Shown here piece by piece: positions 4,970 to 14,841 of a DNA stretch of 64,000 nucleotides (the first letter of the stretch is position 1; each line of letters opens with the position of its first letter). This DNA is from Cyanobium sp. ATX 6A2 (GTDB lineage: Bacteria > Cyanobacteriota > Cyanobacteriia > PCC-6307 > Cyanobiaceae). The stretch lies in the NCBI RefSeq assembly GCF_024346355.1, contig NZ_JAGQCU010000007.1, forward strand, positions 1-64,000. The letters run 5' to 3'. A model generated the notes under the pieces. It searched no databases and was not told the origin of the DNA. It saw only the letters and a program-made list of their open reading frames with translations. Made by a program: the position numbers and the translations under genes.

Positions 4970-5043
4970 CGGGATGTAGCGCAGCTTGGTAGCGCACTTC
5001 GTTCGGGACGAAGGGGCCGCAGGTTCGAATCCTGTCATCCCGA
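4970..5043 (+). tRNA. tRNA-Pro (anticodon CGG)
   Basis: A 74-nt cloverleaf: acceptor stem CGGGATG/CATCCCG, D arm GCGC...GCGC, anticodon stem CTTCG/CGAAG with loop TTCGGGA (anticodon CGG), and T arm GCAGG-TTCGAAT-CCTGT. CCA is not encoded. It lies in the leader of lipA on the opposite strand, and its last nine bases overlap the 3' end of the cobalamin gene. Confidence 0.95.
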
Positions 5044-6858
5044 CTTGTCAGTGAGCTCGGCACCCGGGTAACCCCTTGGTGTCACCACCCAGCCCTCCTG
5101 CTCTCTGGTGCTGCTGTTGCCCATCAGCACCAGGGTGAGCATGTCCACCTGGTCGAGCGGCAGAGCATCCAGTCGGTGCACGCTCACCCGCTCGGCGTCC
5201 CGTCCCAGCTGCCGGGCCAGCACCACCGGGGTGGAACCGGGACGTTCGCCCAGCAGGATCTCTCGGGCCCGCTCCAGCTGCCAGTGGCGATCCCGCGAGC
5301 GCGGGTTGTAGAGCGCCACCACGAAATCGCCCGCCGCGGCCGCCCGCAGCCGTTGTTCGATCACGGCCCAGGGGGTGAGCCTGTCGCTGAGGCTGATGGT
5401 GCAGAAGTCGTGCATCAGCGGAGCGCCCACCCGGGCGGCCGCCAGCTGCAGCGCGGAGATGCCGGGGTGCACCGTGAAACCGGGCCGGCCATCGCCGGGT
5501 TGCTGGAGCCACAGCTCCAGGGCCAGGCCCGCCATGGCGTAGATGCCGCTGTCTCCCGAGGACACCAGGGCCACGTTCAGCCCCTGGCTCGCCAGCTCCA
5601 GCGCCAGCTCGCAGCGCGCCCGCTCTTCGGTGAGCTGGCCGTCGCAGCGCAGCTGGTCGGGCCGGCGCAGGGGCTCCAGCAGATCGAGATAGAGCCCGTA
5701 GCCCACCCACACCGTGGCTTCAGCGAGGGCCCTGCGGGCATCGGGGGTGAGCAGATCGAGCCGCCCCGGGCCGCTGCCCACCAGGTGCAGATGTCCGCGC
5801 TGCGGAGCCCACTGCCCATCGGCCTGGGCAATCGCCAGGGTGGCGGCGCCCTGCTCCCCGCCTGCGCCATGGAGCACCTGCTTCCCCGCCAGCAGCCCTG
5901 CCTTGGGACCGGCCGCCAGCAGCGCGGCCGCCTCGGCCACGCTGGCCGTGCCCATCTCGGCCGCCACCACCGCTGAGGGGTTGGGCACCGATACCGCGTC
6001 CAGGTGGGCGGCTGAGAACCAGCGCAGGGGCCAGTGGCGGCGCCGGGCCAGCTCCAGCAGGGCGGGTTCGTCGGCCTTGCGATCGATGCTGGCCAGCCCT
6101 GCCACGGCCTCGGGGGCCAGCTGCAGCTGCTCCAGTCGCCCGTCCACCAGCCGCTCCAGCAGCTCTAGGCAGGTGTGGCGCTCACAGCCGAGCCCCAACC
6201 ACAGCCCGGGGGGGTGCCAACGGCAGCCGGGTCCGGCGTGGATGGTGATCAGCAGATCCGCCTCACCCTCGCTGTGCGGATCGCTGCACGCCCGCAGGCT
6301 CAGCCCGGTGGCGGCCTGCAGCTGCTGCCAGCGCCGGTTGCCGGCGCTCTGGCTCACCACCGGGGCCGCCCGCGGTGCCGTCTCAGCCTGGGCCGCCCGT
6401 TTCATCAGTGCCGTCCAGTCGCCGCCCGAGCCCCGCCGCCAGCCCCAGGCCCGGCCGAAGCTGTCCAGCGCCAGCCGTTGCCGACCGCCGCTGCTGCCGG
6501 TGCTCACCAGCTGGGCTCCCAGCACGGCGGCCACCTGCTGGCCGAGCGCTTCGGCCCCGGCCTGATGGCCCCCCAGCAGCGGGATCACAAAGCGCCCCTG
6601 GGGATCGAGCACCACCACGGCCGGATCCCGGTGCTTGCCCGCCAGCAACGGGGCCACCAGCCGCACCACCAGTCCGCAGGCACCCACCACCACAAATCCC
6701 CGCGCGCCCGTCCAGTGCTCCCGAAGCCAGCCAGGCAGGGGGGGATCGCCGCAGAGAACCGGCGGCGCTGTCAGCAGCCCCGCCTGCAGCAGGGGCATCA
6801 GCAGAGCCTCCCCCCCGGCACTGAAGCTGAGCCCCCAGAGGCCGCCGTTGTTGCTCAT
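5035..6858 (-). CDS. cobJ: CbiG-CobJ fusion: cobalt-precorrin-5A hydrolase / precorrin-3B C17-methyltransferase
   Basis: A 607-residue two-domain enzyme of cobalamin (or pseudocobalamin) biosynthesis. Residues about 1-340 resemble CbiG, which opens the lactone ring of precorrin-5A. Residues about 355-600 are a tetrapyrrole methyltransferase of the CobJ/CbiH type, with [17 protein letters not shown] at its start, [13 protein letters not shown] in the middle and [11 protein letters not shown] late. A single gene carrying both steps occurs in cyanobacteria. It starts inside the stop codon of the upstream lipoprotein gene (ATGA), so the two are translationally coupled. Its stop codon lies within the 3' end of the convergent tRNA-Pro. 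Confidence 0.88.
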
Positions 6859-8066
6859 GCCGCCGACTCCGGCTGCCCGTTCGGGGACAGCCCGTTCACG
6901 CTGGTGCCCTCGCTCTCCTGGGGCGCCTCCTCGGTGGGCAGCGCTTCCGCCGGATCAGGCCCATCCCCATGCCCGCGTGGCTCGGCATCGGCTTGCGCAG
7001 CGGCTGCGGGCGCAGTCTCTGCAGCGGCTGGTTCGGCCGGTTCTGCAGGCTCCTCTTGCGCAGGCTCCTCAGCGGTGGCGGCCTCGGGGTCTGCAGCCGG
7101 GGCCGTGCCCAGCACCTGCGCCAGTTCCTCCTCGCTCAACGCTCCCCCCAGCCAGCGGGGCCGCGGGCCGGCGGCCCCCAGGGTCACCTCCCGCACCAGC
7201 GTGTTGAACGGGGGATTGAGAGGCTCGCCGCGCTCATCCACCAGTTCCATCAAGAGGCTGTTGCTGCCGGTGCGCCAGCCCTTGAGCCACAGCGGGGCGT
7301 TCTGGTCCACCAGGAAACTGTCGCCGTTGATCGTCACCCGCAGCCGCCAGCGGGCGTCCCCCTCGCGCAGTCCCTGCAGGGGCGCATCCTGCAGCAACCA
7401 GTCGAGCAGCACCGGCTCGGCGCCTGCCAGCTCCGCTGGACTGGCCACGATCAGCTGCGGCGTGCCCGGTGCCGGCACGCCCAGCGGATTGATGGCCACC
7501 CGGTGCAGCCGGATCTGGGCGGAAGCCCCCGGGTTCTTCACCACCTCCCCCCAGGGCCGAACGGCCGTGACGGTGATGCGGTGGCTGCCCGGGGCCAAAG
7601 GGTCCATCGGCACGGCCAGATCGAAGCGCTCGGCGGTGGCGCCGTCTCCTGTGAGGCGCAGGGGCGGTTCGTCATCCACCTGCACGGCCAGATGGGCCCC
7701 AAGGCCAAGCGGGCCGGCATCGGTGAGTGGCCAGTCGCTGCCGCGGATACGCAGGGTCCAGCTCCCGGCAGGGAGCAGGCTGCCGTCCTCAGGGGCGGTG
7801 ATGGCCAGCTGCGGCCTGTGCTGATCGAGGGCTTGCCGCAGCTGCTGCACCGGCGGCGGTGGCGCCACCTCCTGCAGGCGGCCGGCCGCTCCGGCCGCGC
7901 CCAGGGGCAGGGGCTCAGGGGCGCCGCTGTTGCGGCTGAGCCGGGAGCAGCCGGAGGGCGCCAGCAGCACCAGCAGCAGGGCTCCGCTGAGCAGCACCCG
8001 CAGCAGCCGGCGCCATTGTTTGCCAGCTCCGCCGGCCCGCACCACCCTCACCCGCCCTGTCCCCAT
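6855..8066 (-). CDS. Putative lipoprotein, Ala/Glu/Pro-rich C-terminus
   Basis: The product has about 403 residues from the ATG at 8066. A basic N-region is followed by a hydrophobic stretch (LLRVLLSGALLLVLLAPSGC), where LAPSGC fits a lipobox, so a lipid-anchored exported protein is predicted. The middle (about 90-310) reads like beta-rich domains with phrases such as LAITAPEDGSLLPAG and TAVRPWGEVV, resembling Ig-like folds. The last about 90 residues are Ala/Glu/Pro-rich low complexity. An in-frame ATG at 8126 would add 20 residues but moves the signal peptide away from the N-terminus. It overlaps cobJ by ATGA. Function is unknown; coupling to a corrinoid gene hints at, but does not prove, a related role. 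Confidence 0.7.
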   Translation of the reverse strand: MGTGRVRVVRAGGAGKQWRRLLRVLLSGALLLVLLAPSGCSRLSRNSGAPEPLPLGAAGAAGRLQEVAPPPPVQQLRQALDQHRPQLAITAPEDGSLLPAGSWTLRIRGSDWPLTDAGPLGLGAHLAVQVDDEPPLRLTGDGATAERFDLAVPMDPLAPGSHRITVTAVRPWGEVVKNPGASAQIRLHRVAINPLGVPAPGTPQLIVASPAELAGAEPVLLDWLLQDAPLQGLREGDARWRLRVTINGDSFLVDQNAPLWLKGWRTGSNSLLMELVDERGEPLNPPFNTLVREVTLGAAGPRPRWLGGALSEEELAQVLGTAPAADPEAATAEEPAQEEPAEPAEPAAAETAPAAAAQADAEPRGHGDGPDPAEALPTEEAPQESEGTSVNGLSPNGQPESAA

Positions 8067-8126
8067 GGATCTGGAGGCATTCTGCTGGCCCGGACGGCTT
8101 GCCTCCAGTCCGGCCGTCAACCGCAC

Positions 8127-8530
8127 CAGTAACGGTAGGGATATGATTCAAATGACGCGAATGAAGACTAGTCGATATAGCTTTCTTTCCTTCAGGTGCC
8201 AGTCGTGCACTGGGGATCGGGGGTATTGAACCTTTGTTACTGAGCCCAGAAGCATCTTGAGCGTGGCTCTTATGCTGCGCCGAGCGGTCCCCTATCTGGG
8301 GCCTGGCCCCAGCCTCCACAGCGGTTTTGCGAATCCTCGCCTTTGGCGAGCCCTCGCTGAAGCCGCTGCGGCTGGAGCCCATGGACGGCCCCGGTTCGCC
8401 CGGTCCGTCCATGGGGCCCGATCACGGCGCCTCCCTCGCTGGTTTCCAGTTCCTGGTTTCCAGCGGATGAGGCCTCGCTCCCCAGGGGTGGGGACCCCCA
8501 CCTCGACTCTGTCCCTCGAGGAAACACTCG
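8127..8530 (+). promoter_or_regulatory. psaA upstream/leader region
   Basis: About 400 bp without a gene between the divergent lipoprotein gene and psaA. The first about 120 bp are AT-richer (positions 8150-8200) and are the likely promoter area, though I cannot assign -35/-10 boxes. The rest is GC-rich and full of potential stem-loops, consistent with a long structured 5' UTR. A GAGG at 8518-8521 lies ten bases before the psaA ATG and is the likely ribosome-binding site. Confidence 0.6.
8378..8415 (+). promoter_or_regulatory. Strong stem-loop in the psaA leader
   Basis: CCCATGGACGG (8378-8388) and CCGTCCATGGG (8405-8415) form a perfect 11-bp stem, and the 16-nt interior can pair further (CCGG...CCGG). 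It is about 115 nt upstream of psaA and lacks a T-run, so an mRNA stability or translation-control element is likelier than a terminator. Confidence 0.6.
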
Positions 8531-10834
8531 ATGACCATCAGCCCACCAGAGCGTGGGAAAAAGGCTGAGGCCATGGTCGACCGGAACCGCGTTCCGGCCA
8601 CGTTCGAGCTTTTTGAAAAGCCCGGGCATTTCGACCGCAGCCTGGCCAAAGGTCCCAAAACCACAACCTGGATTTGGAACCTCCACGCCAACGCTCACGA
8701 CTTCGACAGCCACACGAGCGACCTCGAAGAGGTCTCTCGCAAGATCTTCTCGGCTCACTTCGGCCATCTGGCCGTCATTTTCATCTGGCTGAGCGGCGCC
8801 TTCTATCACGGTGCCCGCTTCTCCAATTACACCGGCTGGCTGGCTGACCCCCTGCACGTCAAGCCTTCAGCTCAGGTGGTCTGGCCGATCTTTGGCCAGG
8901 AAATTCTCAACGGCGATGTGGGTGCCGGGTTCAACGGCATTCAGATCACCTCCGGTCTCTTCCATGTCTGGAGGGCATGGGGCTTCACCAACGAGTACCA
9001 GCTGCTCGTCACCGCCATCGGCGCACTGGTAATGGCTGGCCTGATGCTCAACGCCGGGGTCTTCCATTACCACAGAGCCGCCCCGAAGCTGGAGTGGTTC
9101 CAGAACGTTGAGTCCATGCTCAACCACCACCTGGCTGGCCTGCTGGGTCTGGGCTCCCTCTCCTGGACAGGACACCTCCTGCACGTGTCCCTGCCCACCA
9201 CGGCCCTGATGGATGCCATCGATGCCGGTGAGCCCCTGGCCATCAACGGCCAGACCATCGCCTCCTATGGCGATATTCCGCTCCCCCACGAGTTCCTCAA
9301 CCAGGACGTCATTTCCCAGCTGTATCCAGGTTTCGGTGCCGGCATTTCTGCCTTCTTCACCGGCAACTGGGCGGCTTACAGCGACTTCCTCACCTTCAAG
9401 GGCGGCCTCAACCCCGTCACTGGAAGCCTATGGATGACCGATATCGCCCACCACCACTTGGCGATCGCGGTGCTGTTCATCGTTGCCGGTCACATGTACC
9501 GGACCAACTGGGGCATCGGCCACAGCATCAAGGAAATCCTGGAAGGTCAGAAGGGTGATCCCCTGCTGTTCCCTGCCACCAATGGGCACGACGGCCTGTT
9601 CGAGTTCATGACCACCAGCTGGCATGCCCAACTGGGTGTGAACCTGGCTCTGTTCGGCTCGCTCACCATCATCGTGGCGCATCACATGTATGCGATGCCG
9701 CCCTATCCCTACATTGGGATCGATTACCCCACCCAGGTGTCGCTATTCACCCACCACATGTGGATCGGCGGCTTCCTGATCGTCGGAGCCGGTGCCCACT
9801 CGGCCATCGCACTCATCCGCGACTACGACCCGGCCAAGAACATCGACAACGTTCTGGATCGGGTGCTGAAAGCCCGTGATGCCCTGATCAGCCACCTCAA
9901 CTGGGTGTGCATTTTCCTGGGCTTCCACAGCTTCGGCCTCTACATCCACAACGACACCATGCGTGCCCTGGGACGTCCCCAGGACATGTTCAGTGACTCC
10001 GCCATTGCTCTGAAGCCAATCTTCGCGCAGTGGATCCAGGGTCTCCATGCCGCCGCCGCCGGCACCACCGCTCCCAATGCCCTCGCGGGTGTGAGCGAGG
10101 TGTTCAACGGCTCCGTGGTGGCTGTGGGTGGCAAGGTTGCGGCTGGCCCGATTCCCCTGGGCACGGCGGACTTCATGGTCCACCACATCCACGCCTTCAC
10201 GATCCACGTCACCGTGCTGATCCTGCTGAAGGGTGTGCTCTATGCCCGCAGCTCCCGCCTCGTCCCCGACAAGGCGAACCTCGGCTTCCGCTTCCCCTGC
10301 GACGGCCCCGGCCGTGGCGGGACCTGCCAGGTCTCAGCCTGGGACCATGTGTTCCTGGGTCTGTTCTGGATGTACAACTCCCTGTCGATCGTGATCTTCC
10401 ACTTCTCCTGGAAGATGCAGAGCGACGTGTGGGGCACCGTCAATGCAGATGGCAGCGTCCAGCACATCACCAACGGCAACTTCGCTCAGAGCGCCATCAC
10501 CATCAATGGCTGGCTGCGTGATTTCCTGTGGGCCCAGGCCGCACAGGTGATCAACAGCTATGGCTCCAGCTCCAGTGCCTATGGCCTGATGTTCCTGGGT
10601 TCCCACTTCATCTGGGCCTTCAGCCTGATGTTCCTGTTCAGCGGCCGCGGCTACTGGCAGGAGCTGATTGAGTCCATCGTCTGGGCTCACAACAAACTGA
10701 AGGTGGCGCCGGCCATTCAGCCCCGTGCGCTCTCCATCACTCAGGGCCGTGCCGTGGGTGTCGCTCATTACCTTCTGGGCGGCATCGCGACCACTTGGTC
10801 CTTCTTCCTGGCCCGCATGATTGCGGTCGGCTGA
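8531..10834 (+). CDS. psaA: Photosystem I P700 chlorophyll a apoprotein A1
   Basis: One half of the photosystem I reaction-centre heterodimer in the thylakoid membrane. It binds P700, antenna chlorophylls and, with PsaB, the Fx [4Fe-4S] cluster. The 767-residue length is normal. The invariant Fx loop [12 protein letters not shown] carries Cys590 and Cys599. Many His-rich helices ([37 protein letters not shown]) supply chlorophyll ligands. It is followed after 18 bp by psaB and they form one operon ending at a strong terminator. The start chosen ([11 protein letters not shown]) has a GAGG ahead of it and matches the family N-terminus. Confidence 0.99.
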
Positions 10835-10852: not shown

Positions 10853-13069
10853 ATGGCAACGAAATTTCCTTCGTTCAGCCGGGGTCTGGCGCAGGACCCG
10901 ACAACCCGCCGAATTTGGTACGGGATTGCCACGGCTCACGACTTCGAGAGCCACGACGGCATGACCGAGGAGCGGCTTTACCAGAAGCTGTTCTCCACCC
11001 ACTTCGGACACCTGGCCGTTATCGGCCTCTGGGTTTCGGGCAACCTGTTCCATATCGCCTGGCAGGGCAACTTTGAACAGTGGGTCGCCGATCCGCTGAA
11101 TGTCCGTCCCATCGCTCACGCGATCTGGGATCCCCACTTCGGTGAAGGGGCCATCAACGCCTTCACCCAAGCCGGTGCCTCCTCTCCGGTGAATGTGGCC
11201 TACTCAGGCCTCTACCACTGGTGGTACACGATCGGCATGACCACCAATGCCGAGCTGTACCAGGGCGCCATCTTCATGATGATCCTGTCGGCGTGGGCTC
11301 TCTTCGCCGGCTGGCTCCACCTCCAGCCCAAGTTCCGGCCTTCCCTGGCCTGGTTCAAGAACGCTGAATCACGACTCAACCATCACCTGGCGGTTCTGTT
11401 CGGCTTCAGCTCCATCGCCTGGACCGGTCACCTGGTTCACGTGGCCATCCCCGAGTCCCGCGGCCAGCACGTGGGCTGGGACAACTTCCTCTCGGTGTCG
11501 CCTCACCCGGCAGGTCTGGGGCCCTTCTTCACCGGCAACTGGGGGGTCTATGCCCAGAACCCTGATACCCAGTATCAGCTGTTCGGCACGACTGAAGGTT
11601 CCGGTACAGCCATCCTCACCTTCCTGGGTGGCTTCCATCCCCAGACCGAAGCGCTCTGGCTCACTGACATCGCCCATCACCACCTGGCGATTGGTGTGAT
11701 CTTCGTGATCGCCGGCCACATGTACCGCACCAACTTCGGTATCGGCCACTCGATCCGCGAGATTCTCGAAGCCCACAATCCCCCCAAAGGCACGCCTTTC
11801 GGCGGCGCCCTCGGAGCTGGGCACAAGGGTCTCTACGACACCGTCAACAATTCACTGCACTTCCAACTCGGTCTGGCCCTGGCCAGCCTTGGGGTGGCCA
11901 CCAGCCTGGTGGCGCAGCACATGTATGCGCTGCCGTCCTATGCATTCATTGCCAAGGACTACACCACGCAGGCAGCTCTTTACACCCATCACCAGTACAT
12001 CGCCATCTTCCTGATGTGCGGTGCCTTCGCCCACGGTGCGATCTTCTTCATCCGTGACTACGACCCCGAGGCCAACAAGAACAATGTTCTGGCCAGGATG
12101 CTCGAGCACAAGGAAGCGATCATCAGCCACCTGAGCTGGGTGTCTCTGTTCCTCGGCTTCCACACCCTGGGTCTCTACGTCCATAACGACGTGGTTGTGG
12201 CCTTCGGTACCCCCGAGAAGCAGATCCTGGTGGAGCCGGTGTTCGCCCAGTTCGTGCAGGCCTCCTCCGGTAAGGCCCTCTACGGCATGGACGTGCTGCT
12301 CTCCAACTCAGAGAGCATCTCCTCCACGGCCGGCGCCGTCTGGCTGCCCGGTTGGCTGGACAGCATCAACTCCGGCACCAACTCCCTGTTCCTCCAGATC
12401 GGTCCTGGTGACTTCCTGGTGCACCACGCCATCGCGCTGGGTCTCCACACCACCACCCTGATCCTGGTGAAGGGTGCCCTGGATGCCAGGGGTTCGAAGC
12501 TGATGCCCGACAAGAAGGACTTCGGCTACTCCTTCCCCTGCGACGGCCCCGGCCGTGGCGGCACCTGCGACATCAGCGCCTGGGACGCCTTCTATCTGGC
12601 TGTCTTCTGGGCCCTGAACACCGTGGGTTGGGTCACCTTCTACTGGCACTGGAAGCACCTCGCCATCTGGCAGGGCAACGTGGCCCAGTTCAACGAATCC
12701 AGCACCTATCTGATGGGCTGGTTCCGCGACTACCTCTGGCTCAACAGTTCCCAGCTGATCAACGGCTACAACCCGGCCGGCACCAACAACCTGGCCGTCT
12801 GGGCCTGGATGTTCCTGTTCGGTCACCTGGTGTGGGCTACCGGCTTCATGTTCCTGATCTCCTGGCGGGGCTACTGGCAGGAACTGATCGAAACCATCGT
12901 CTGGGCGCACCAGCGCACTCCGCTCGCCAACCTGGTGGGCTGGCGTGACAAGCCCGTGGCTCTCTCGATCGTTCAGGCCCGTGTGGTGGGTCTGGCTCAC
13001 TTCACGGTGGGCTACTTCCTCACCTATGCCGCCTTCCTGATCGCCTCAACGGCTGGCAAGTTCGGCTGA
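10853..13069 (+). CDS. psaB: Photosystem I P700 chlorophyll a apoprotein A2
   Basis: Partner of PsaA in the photosystem I core. It has 738 residues, as usual. The N-terminus [20 protein letters not shown] is characteristic. The Fx motif [12 protein letters not shown] supplies Cys563 and Cys572, and the C-terminal [21 protein letters not shown] segment contains the last helix. It is co-transcribed with psaA; a GC-rich hairpin with a T-run begins about 40 bp after the stop codon. Confidence 0.99.
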
Positions 13070-13567: not shown

Positions 13568-14056
13568 TCAGCCTGCGCTCCAGACGCCGCCCAGGTGAGC
13601 CAGGGGGCTGGAGAGGGCAATGCTGGCCAGGAACCAGGCGAAGGCGGCGCCGCCGCAGCCACCGAGCCAGAAGCCGCTGGCGAATTCAGCCCAGCCGGCC
13701 TTGGTGAACAGGTCGGCGGGAGGATTGTCGATGGTGGCATCGGCGGGTTGCACGTTGGGACCGCTCCCCGCAGTGCTGTAGATCGACAGGCAGACGGTGA
13801 GGATCGACACCAGCCCGATCGCGCCCAACAGGCCGGCGGTGCTCGCGTAGTCGGTCATGCGCAGGGGGCCGGTGAAGGCGAACGGCCCATACAGCAGGTA
13901 GCCATGGGCCATGCCCACCTCAAGGCCCCGGCGGTTCGGTGACAGGGAGGGGCGATAGGCGGGCAGCGCGTTCAGAAAGGCCTTGCTGAAGTAGCTGCTG
14001 TTCACAGGAGTGGCCAGATTGCCGACGCAGGGGTCGGCCACGGGGGTCACAGTCAT
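13568..14056 (-). CDS. psaL: Photosystem I reaction centre subunit XI
   Basis: A small membrane subunit of photosystem I needed for trimer formation. The ATG at 14056 gives 162 residues. Recognisable segments are [40 protein letters not shown] (binding surface to the core) and three hydrophobic helices, the last ending in a Gly/Ala-rich tail. The frame stays open upstream over psaI, but that part has no PsaL homology. psaI lies 50 bp upstream, and a terminator follows. Confidence 0.97.
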
Positions 14057-14106
14057 GGGGTGGTGGAAAAGGGCTGGACTGAGTAGGGCTGGATGGAGGG
14101 GCTGCC

Positions 14107-14223
14107 TCACTCGGTGGCTTCGATCACGTTGAACAGCAGGGCCATGGCCACAGCTGCGCCGAGGATGCCCACGAGGGGAACCAGCACGGAAGGCATCCAG
14201 GCGGCAGCGAAATCTCCAGTCAT
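14107..14223 (-). CDS. psaI: Photosystem I subunit VIII
   Basis: A 38-residue single-helix protein reading [20 protein letters not shown] and ending NVIEATE, with the hydrophobic core and terminal acidic residues expected of PsaI. PsaI sits next to PsaL at the trimer centre of photosystem I. It is directly upstream of psaL in the same direction, the usual psaI-psaL pair. A TTTACA on the minus strand 29-34 bases upstream of the start might belong to a promoter or an RpaB half-site. Confidence 0.92.
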
Positions 14224-14313
14224 GACAATGGCCGATACTTACCATCTGTACTGTAAAGATCGCCGTTGGGTGCGCCTTTTGGCCGCCCCGCTGGCGACAT
14301 AAAAGTTCAACCC

Positions 14314-14841
14314 ATGGCACCGTCGATCCTTGCTGGGGCCGCTGCCCTGTTGCTGTTCCTCACCTGGAGTTTGCGTCGCCGCACCCCGCCGGCGCTGCTG
14401 CGCTCCACCGACGCCAGCGCCATCGCCGCCCTCAACCGGGCCCAGATCACCCTGCTGCGTACTGGCCCCGGCCGCAGCGACGGAGCGCAGGCCACCGGCA
14501 CCGCCCCCTCGGCTGGCGTTGCGGCTCAACGGACTGCCAATGAGATCGCCGATGGCGTCATTCCGCCCACCGCCGACGCGCGCCAGCGCGCCCAGCTCAA
14601 GGCCCGCCTCGAGCAGCAGCTGCGCGGGGATGGCCAGCAGCGCCTGCAGGCCATGGGCATCGCTCGGCGCTGGGGACAGCCGGACGTGCTGTCGGTGCTG
14701 CGCCGGGGCCTGCGCGATGTGGATCCCCGGGTTGTGCGGGAGGCGGCTCGCGGCCTGGAGCGCTTCCGCTGCTGCCCCTGCTCCGCCGCCCGCGCGCGCC
14801 CTCAGCTGCCGCTGCCCCGCAACGTCTCGCGCACGCGGTAG
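14314..14841 (+). CDS. Hypothetical membrane-anchored protein with HEAT-like end
   Basis: From the ATG at 14314 the product has 175 residues. It begins with a short hydrophobic helix ([17 protein letters not shown]) followed by RRR, so an N-terminal anchor with the rest in the cytoplasm is predicted. Residues about 100-155 are helical and charged, with [15 protein letters not shown] and [20 protein letters not shown], reminiscent of one or two HEAT-like repeats. The last about 20 residues overlap the convergent glycosyltransferase gene. I do not recognise the family. Confidence 0.55.

Follow-up and report, generated by a model that had tools for sequence, protein, structure and literature searches.

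PsaA and PsaB form the core of photosystem I, and abundant picocyanobacteria need large amounts of both. In the window analysed here, a stretch of 64,000 nucleotides from a contig of Cyanobium sp. ATX 6A2, the two genes follow a leader that a first-pass annotation described as highly structured, and for which it suggested control of mRNA stability or translation, for example in high light. The locus thus raises a simple question: is this leader a conserved regulatory RNA, and at which step would it act upon psaAB? The gene just 3' of psaB is psaL (13568-14320, reverse strand; PF02605, 198.1 bits), which is convergent with psaAB. On the left, divergent from psaA, lies a 423-aa open reading frame (6855-8126, reverse strand) with no Pfam match at E 0.001, followed by a single reading frame (5035-6858, reverse strand) that bears CbiG N-terminal, CbiG C-terminal and tetrapyrrole methylase domains. 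The features discussed below are collected in Table 1.

Table 1. Genes, promoter elements and RNA structures at the psaAB leader of the window
Feature	Position	Strand	Basis or remark
HLR1-like element TTGAACCTTTGTTACTG (reverse strand CAGTAACAAAGGTTCAA), possible RpaB site	8226..8242		conserved pattern; binding putative
-10-like box TATGCT, within the 5' end of the Rfam match	8271..8276	+	TATACT, TATGCT or TATAGT at 196 of 205 strict-pattern loci
Inferred psaAB 5' UTR, 248 nt, start about A8283	8283..8530	+	promoter rule
5' tract, GGUCCCC (8286-8292) and GGGGCC (8298-8303)	8286..8303	+	alternative foldings: local 5' hairpin, or P1 strand
Hairpin A, CTCGCC/GGCGAG at tip	8309..8375	+	fold; both-side changes in 5 of 6 counted basal pairs, 84 leaders
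Hairpin B, 11-bp stem, UUCG tip	8378..8415	+	both-side changes in 6 of 8 counted pairs
Hairpin C, GCCTC..GAGGC arms	8429..8473	+	fold; length variable among relatives
Palt hairpin, GGTGGGG/CCCCACC	8487..8502	+	excludes P1; absent from the Rfam structure
Element 1, CCTCGA, 5' arm of the Rfam 3' hairpin	8501..8506	+	pairs with 8516-8521; six pairs invariant in 84 leaders
Start-codon hairpin	8511..8535	+	predicted fold; outer GUC 8511-8513/GAC 8533-8535, inner UCGAG 8516-8520/CUCGA 8527-8531
Shine-Dalgarno GAGG	8518..8521	+	9 nt before ATG
psaA	8531..10834	+	PF00223, 1138 bits
psaB	10853..13069	+	PF00223, 1306.8 bits

The first part of the question is answered by a family already on record. Positions 8269..8534 of the forward strand match Rfam RF01752, "psaA RNA", with 65.9 bits against a gathering threshold of 50 (E 8.8e-13) and across the complete model (positions 1-197 of 197), and this leader is the single match in the window genome. 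The match places the RNA in the potential 5' UTR of the cyanobacterial psaAB operon, here ahead of psaA at 8531 and psaB at 10853. The family was described in 2010 by Weinberg et al. (PMC2864571) as potential psaAB 5' UTRs with three hairpins, which often carry UNCG tetraloops. A possible light-linked regulation of psaAB by the leader was already proposed in that paper, whose passage on psaA RNA describes regulation in the species that carry it as unstudied at that time. Literature searches found no experiment on any RF01752 member, PMC2864571 being the sole match to the term "RF01752" among the papers searched. Judged by its sequence, the psaAB 5' UTR belongs to the psaA RNA family: it is a real, conserved and already catalogued cis-acting leader. 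What is proposed as new is a revision of its 3' structure and a promoter box placed inside the Rfam match. Another Rfam hit, to mir-2968, scored 23.4 bits against a cut-off of 70 and was taken as chance.

The family was found in 21 of 25 Cyanobiaceae genomes, the window genome being counted, versus none of 15 genomes outside Cyanobiaceae. A larger Cyanobiaceae sample contained it in 201 of 300 genomes, with 169 above the cut-off. Among the 99 no-match genomes of that sample, 20 were checked for psaA; 10 had psaA with a reduced or divergent leader, while the other 10 gave no psaA match, so that their missing RF01752 is uninformative. A contig titled Bifidobacterium breve (L236) carries a psaA whose product shares 93% identity with the query, and that bin is therefore probably mislabelled or contaminated.

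The structure of the leader is strong. The RNA fold of 8280-8545 has a predicted energy of -142.5 kcal/mol (z -5.81), with 0 of 200 dinucleotide shuffles equally stable, which bears out the early description of the leader as highly structured. The stems named in that description are also present: the 11-bp perfect stem at 8378-8415 is exact, with CCCATGGACGG (8378-8388) pairing with CCGTCCATGGG (8405-8415); CTCGCC/GGCGAG, placed at 8337-8351, lies one base away at 8336-8341/8345-8350; and GGTGGGG/CCCCACC, placed at 8484-8499, lies about three away at 8487-8493/8496-8502. The CTCGCC/GGCGAG stem is the tip of a longer hairpin, A, which is an addition to that description together with hairpin C and the hairpin at the Shine-Dalgarno sequence and start codon. 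The window shares gene, position, lineage and sequence with psaA RNA, but its match spans 266 nt versus 197 model positions and includes a larger hairpin A as well as hairpin C. The UUCG of hairpin B folds within a 5-nt loop. The window has at least three hairpins, namely A, B and C plus those at the 3' end, and the covariation evidence concerns A and B only.

That evidence comes from 223 Cyanobiaceae leaders, reduced to 101 non-redundant ones (<90% identity). The alignment holds 84 of these, and 17 were omitted as short or divergent (L018, L021, L054, L056, L063, L066, L067, L068, L069, L070, L272, L277, L279, L280, L281, L282 and L284), including L281, which looks canonical and could have been kept; all of the omitted leaders but L069, that is 16 of the 17, were folded separately. 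A structure made up of hairpin A, hairpin B, Palt and the start-codon hairpin, mapped onto the 84 leaders, has 93.5% of its cells paired. Changes on both sides of a pair occupy 203 cells; shuffles gave 84.6, and none of 500 reached the observed value, in a control that leaves the relatedness of the leaders in. Slid versions of the structure give 21-83 such cells. All of the both-side changes are confined to hairpins A and B. On this comparative evidence, the 5' domain of psaA RNA is conserved and carries compensatory changes in hairpins A and B, which, with the Rfam match, agrees with the claim of a conserved structured leader. An absence of conserved stems, which would have told against the early suggestion, was not seen. 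The CTCGCC/GGCGAG tip in itself, gapped in most of the 84 rows, is no general trait of the family.

Two groups of leaders diverge from this structure. Two leaders from one genome (L021 and L065, G015) have a psaA leader of about 57 nt by the promoter rule and no 5' hairpin domain, and retain ACCUCGA and CUCG-AUG. In six others (L272, L277, L279, L280, L282 and L284, from Synechococcus lacustris, RCC307, TMED19 and others), GCUGGGG/CCCCAGC closes a long arm; element 1 and Palt are absent, and UCGAG..CUCGA is kept.

At the 3' end, where the final 30-odd nt of the leader are nearly invariant in the 84-row alignment, two hairpins compete. Rfam pairs CCUCGA with UCGAGG, while the alternative pairs UCGAG with CUCGA, whose final A is the A of AUG. 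Folding favours the latter. For its inner stem in the window, the predicted probability at 37 C is 0.91. At this temperature the start-codon stem has a mean of 0.92 over 85 leaders, whereas the Rfam 3' hairpin reaches a mean of 0.03 over 86; both were computed only on leaders having the Rfam arms (85 and 86 of 101). RNAalifold also selects the start-codon hairpin. Under a strict rule, 86 of the 101 leaders are able to form both hairpins, 8 the start-codon stem only, 0 the Rfam hairpin only and 7 neither, although the rule demands AGG at the end of an arm before it counts the Rfam hairpin, and L054 (GGGG) is thus possibly miscounted. The 8 with the start-codon stem only represent perhaps three lineages. 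The GAGG itself is predicted to be paired at 0.77 in the window at 37 C. Because the 3' sequence is near-invariant, it provides no covariation for or against either hairpin, and it may instead be conserved for the sake of a protein, an sRNA or the ribosome. The Shine-Dalgarno/start pattern has one copy in its own genome, and the conserved 3' block, searched as a single exact DNA pattern in a viral collection, gave 0 matches.

In energy, this start region is unexceptional. At least as stable are 33 of 48 window genes, possibly including psaA itself, in a comparison that uses crude gene starts, some of them probably wrong; by shuffle z, however, the region ranks 4th of the 48. Of 1000 shuffles of the window start region, 113 were as stable (z -1.3), and the mean z is -0.7 over 49 Cyanobiaceae leaders and -1.0 over 46 leaders from outside the family. 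It is the folding of relatives that suggests, with moderate strength, that the start-codon hairpin is favoured over the Rfam 3' hairpin.

Other cyanobacteria extend this comparison as a lead only. Many of their leaders carry GAGAGGAGAGUCUC-AUG or something similar, and in several of them a stem is predicted to reach codons 2-3, while those with GGAGGUCGA-AUG have no such arrangement or stem. A partner-swap test first returned 0/5000 for all 78 leaders and 0/5000 for the 46 outside leaders. With one leader per distinct last six bases it gave 4/5000, and 1318/5000 for Cyanobiaceae only. When 24 families were represented by a single leader each, the result was 88-231/20000 by split, the inner stem alone giving 4424/20000 and a split at the ATG 16815/20000. 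In the sliding control, other splits, some of them in coding sequence, were equal or stronger; the test is therefore non-discriminating and was downgraded. Phylum-wide conservation of the start-codon hairpin is accordingly offered as a lead, and as nothing firmer.

How might such a leader work? The reading that we place first, and to which we would give an even chance, is that the psaAB leader is an RF01752 cis-acting throttle on translation initiation with a structured 5' domain. The 3' block would mainly fold UCGAG, the Shine-Dalgarno strand, with CUCGA at the start codon, as the folding models moderately suggest, and the GUC/GAC pairing would extend this stem into codon 2. The start-codon hairpin would throttle initiation on PsaA, and the upstream hairpins may shield the mRNA towards its 5' end or bind a factor. 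Support from the literature is indirect and by analogy. In the chloroplast of Chlamydomonas, a hairpin masking the Shine-Dalgarno sequence of psaA is reported to control translation of a reporter (PMC10639063); against the analogy, the abundance of PsaA protein in the alga was, by the authors' account, unaffected by this thermometer. In Synechocystis at low temperature, the translation efficiency of psaA and psaB is described as going down and ribosome footprints on the 5' UTR as going up (PMC8651088). The other parts of the original suggestion are conjectural: control of mRNA stability would be one possible role, control by the leader RNA in high light is unproven, and a conserved HLR1-like site in the DNA could account for light control.

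The strongest competitor builds upon that site. It holds that light control of psaAB is exerted on the DNA through RpaB at the HLR1-like site, the leader setting only mRNA stability or basal expression, and we find it plausible while leaning somewhat against it. A sigma-70 consensus scan of 7500-9000 found no site, and the promoter was instead placed by pattern. Under a strict pattern, 205 of 278 loci (53 of the 278 from outside Cyanobiaceae) have a GAACCTTTGTaAC-type element 41-44 nt before a TATRCT-like box, and the spacing is 42-43 nt in 202 of the 205, a near-fixed distance that speaks for this proposal. A relaxed pattern places both element and box in 223 of 225 Cyanobiaceae loci. In the 101 leaders, 12 of 14 positions of the HLR1-like core reach 93% identity or more, which is in part a product of the selection of these leaders by the same pattern.

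The rule used here counts 12 nt from the first base of the -10-like box to the RNA start, and the box at 8271-8276 thus sets the start near 8283. The first Rfam model positions then fall over the -10-like box, and probably lie outside the transcript. A start downstream of 8415, which would have told against the early suggestion, is not indicated, as the inferred start is 5' of every stem; the 84-row alignment was cut at this start and is hence no test of it.

The published HLR1 consensus is (G/T)TTACA(T/A)(T/A)NN(G/T)TTACA(T/A)(T/A), and an activating position is given as about 50-100 nt upstream of the start (PMC11633204). The same source cites HLR1 work on the psaAB promoters of Synechocystis, and the window likewise has an HLR1-like site upstream. 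In S. elongatus UTEX 2973, the start-site signal of psaA is reported to drop in high light (log2 -2.23, PMC6091082), which fits control at the DNA level. However, the window site matches the consensus only in part: by eye, and on the reverse strand, one half-site fits (Cyanobiaceae consensus GTTACAAA; window GTAACAAA, with one mismatch) and the second half is weak. The element also lies 41-57 nt 5' of the inferred start, close to the proximal limit of the activating range, and control through it would leave the compensatory changes in the RNA hairpins unexplained. The window site is best called a putative target, at which RpaB may bind. RpaB control and a role for the RNA are compatible and not mutually exclusive.

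A further proposal takes the hairpins as a binding or localisation signal for proteins of the Rbp2/Rbp3 type, which would carry the psaA message to the thylakoid. In the literature, Rbp3 and RbpG are described as binding or influencing photosynthetic mRNAs, that of psaA among them (PMC11500504). These effects come from Synechocystis and Anabaena, whereas RF01752 occurs in 0 of 15 tested genomes outside Cyanobiaceae, and binding to the leader would be hypothetical. We consider the proposal unlikely.

Slightly deeper in doubt is a bistable switch, in which P1 would oppose Palt, the two 3' hairpins, both using the Shine-Dalgarno strand, would likewise be mutually exclusive, and a signal would shift the states. 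P1, the closing helix of the Rfam structure, pairs 8286-8292 with 8490-8496. P1 and Palt are nearly balanced in the window: forced foldings give -139.6 kcal/mol with P1 and -138.8 with Palt (0.8 apart), and Palt has a predicted probability of 0.76 at 25 C, which drops to 0.48 at 37 C. The relatives do not repeat this balance. The Palt motif is present in 89 of the 101 non-redundant leaders, and at 37 C its predicted probability exceeds 0.5 in 81 of the 89, while P1 exceeds 0.5 in just 2 of them, the window (0.52) and L019. Over the 84 leaders, Palt has 97.6% of its cells paired and no pair with a both-side change; P1 and the Rfam 3' hairpin likewise have 0 pairs with both-side changes, and GC-rich overlapping tracts may yield alternative helices by chance. 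The folding thus moderately favours Palt (GGUG/CACC) over P1 in most relatives, as it favours the start-codon hairpin over Rfam's 3' hairpin. A bolder synthesis, in which the 3' end of the Rfam model is wrong and the core is the start-codon hairpin with the preceding Palt, the hairpin is an old trait of cyanobacterial psaA and the ancestor of the chloroplast thermometer, and P1/Palt switching sets photosystem I synthesis, is a speculation that we would back no more readily than the switch.

That the start-codon hairpin itself is an RNA thermometer, as in the Chlamydomonas reinhardtii chloroplast, appears very improbable. The gene and the position are the same, in that both are psaA 5' UTR hairpins with the Shine-Dalgarno sequence inside; the authors of the algal study mention that a comparable structure is predicted in Synechococcus PCC 7002 (PMC10639063), and the loss of psaA and psaB translation efficiency in the cold, reported for Synechocystis (PMC8651088), points the same way. 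The algal hairpin was, however, tested by mutation, and that of the window is predicted, with flat predicted melting: from 10 to 45 C, the pairing of the Shine-Dalgarno sequence stays at 0.75-0.79 and that of the start codon drops only from 0.76 to 0.55. This flatness leaves a simple thermometer unsupported and lowered its odds.

Transcription attenuation within the leader, for which the strong alternative helices might speak, is the least credible of all, and an intrinsic-terminator attenuator was rejected: as first noted, the stems lack T-runs, and a consensus scan of 7500-9000 for a GC hairpin with a T-run found nothing in the leader and one terminator-like site inside coding sequence (8761-8774; 1.0 expected by shuffles).

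The throttle on initiation is the reading that we carry forward. Once the start-codon hairpin was defined and the structure corrected, the role of psaA RNA, the question raised in 2010, would become testable by a few point mutants.
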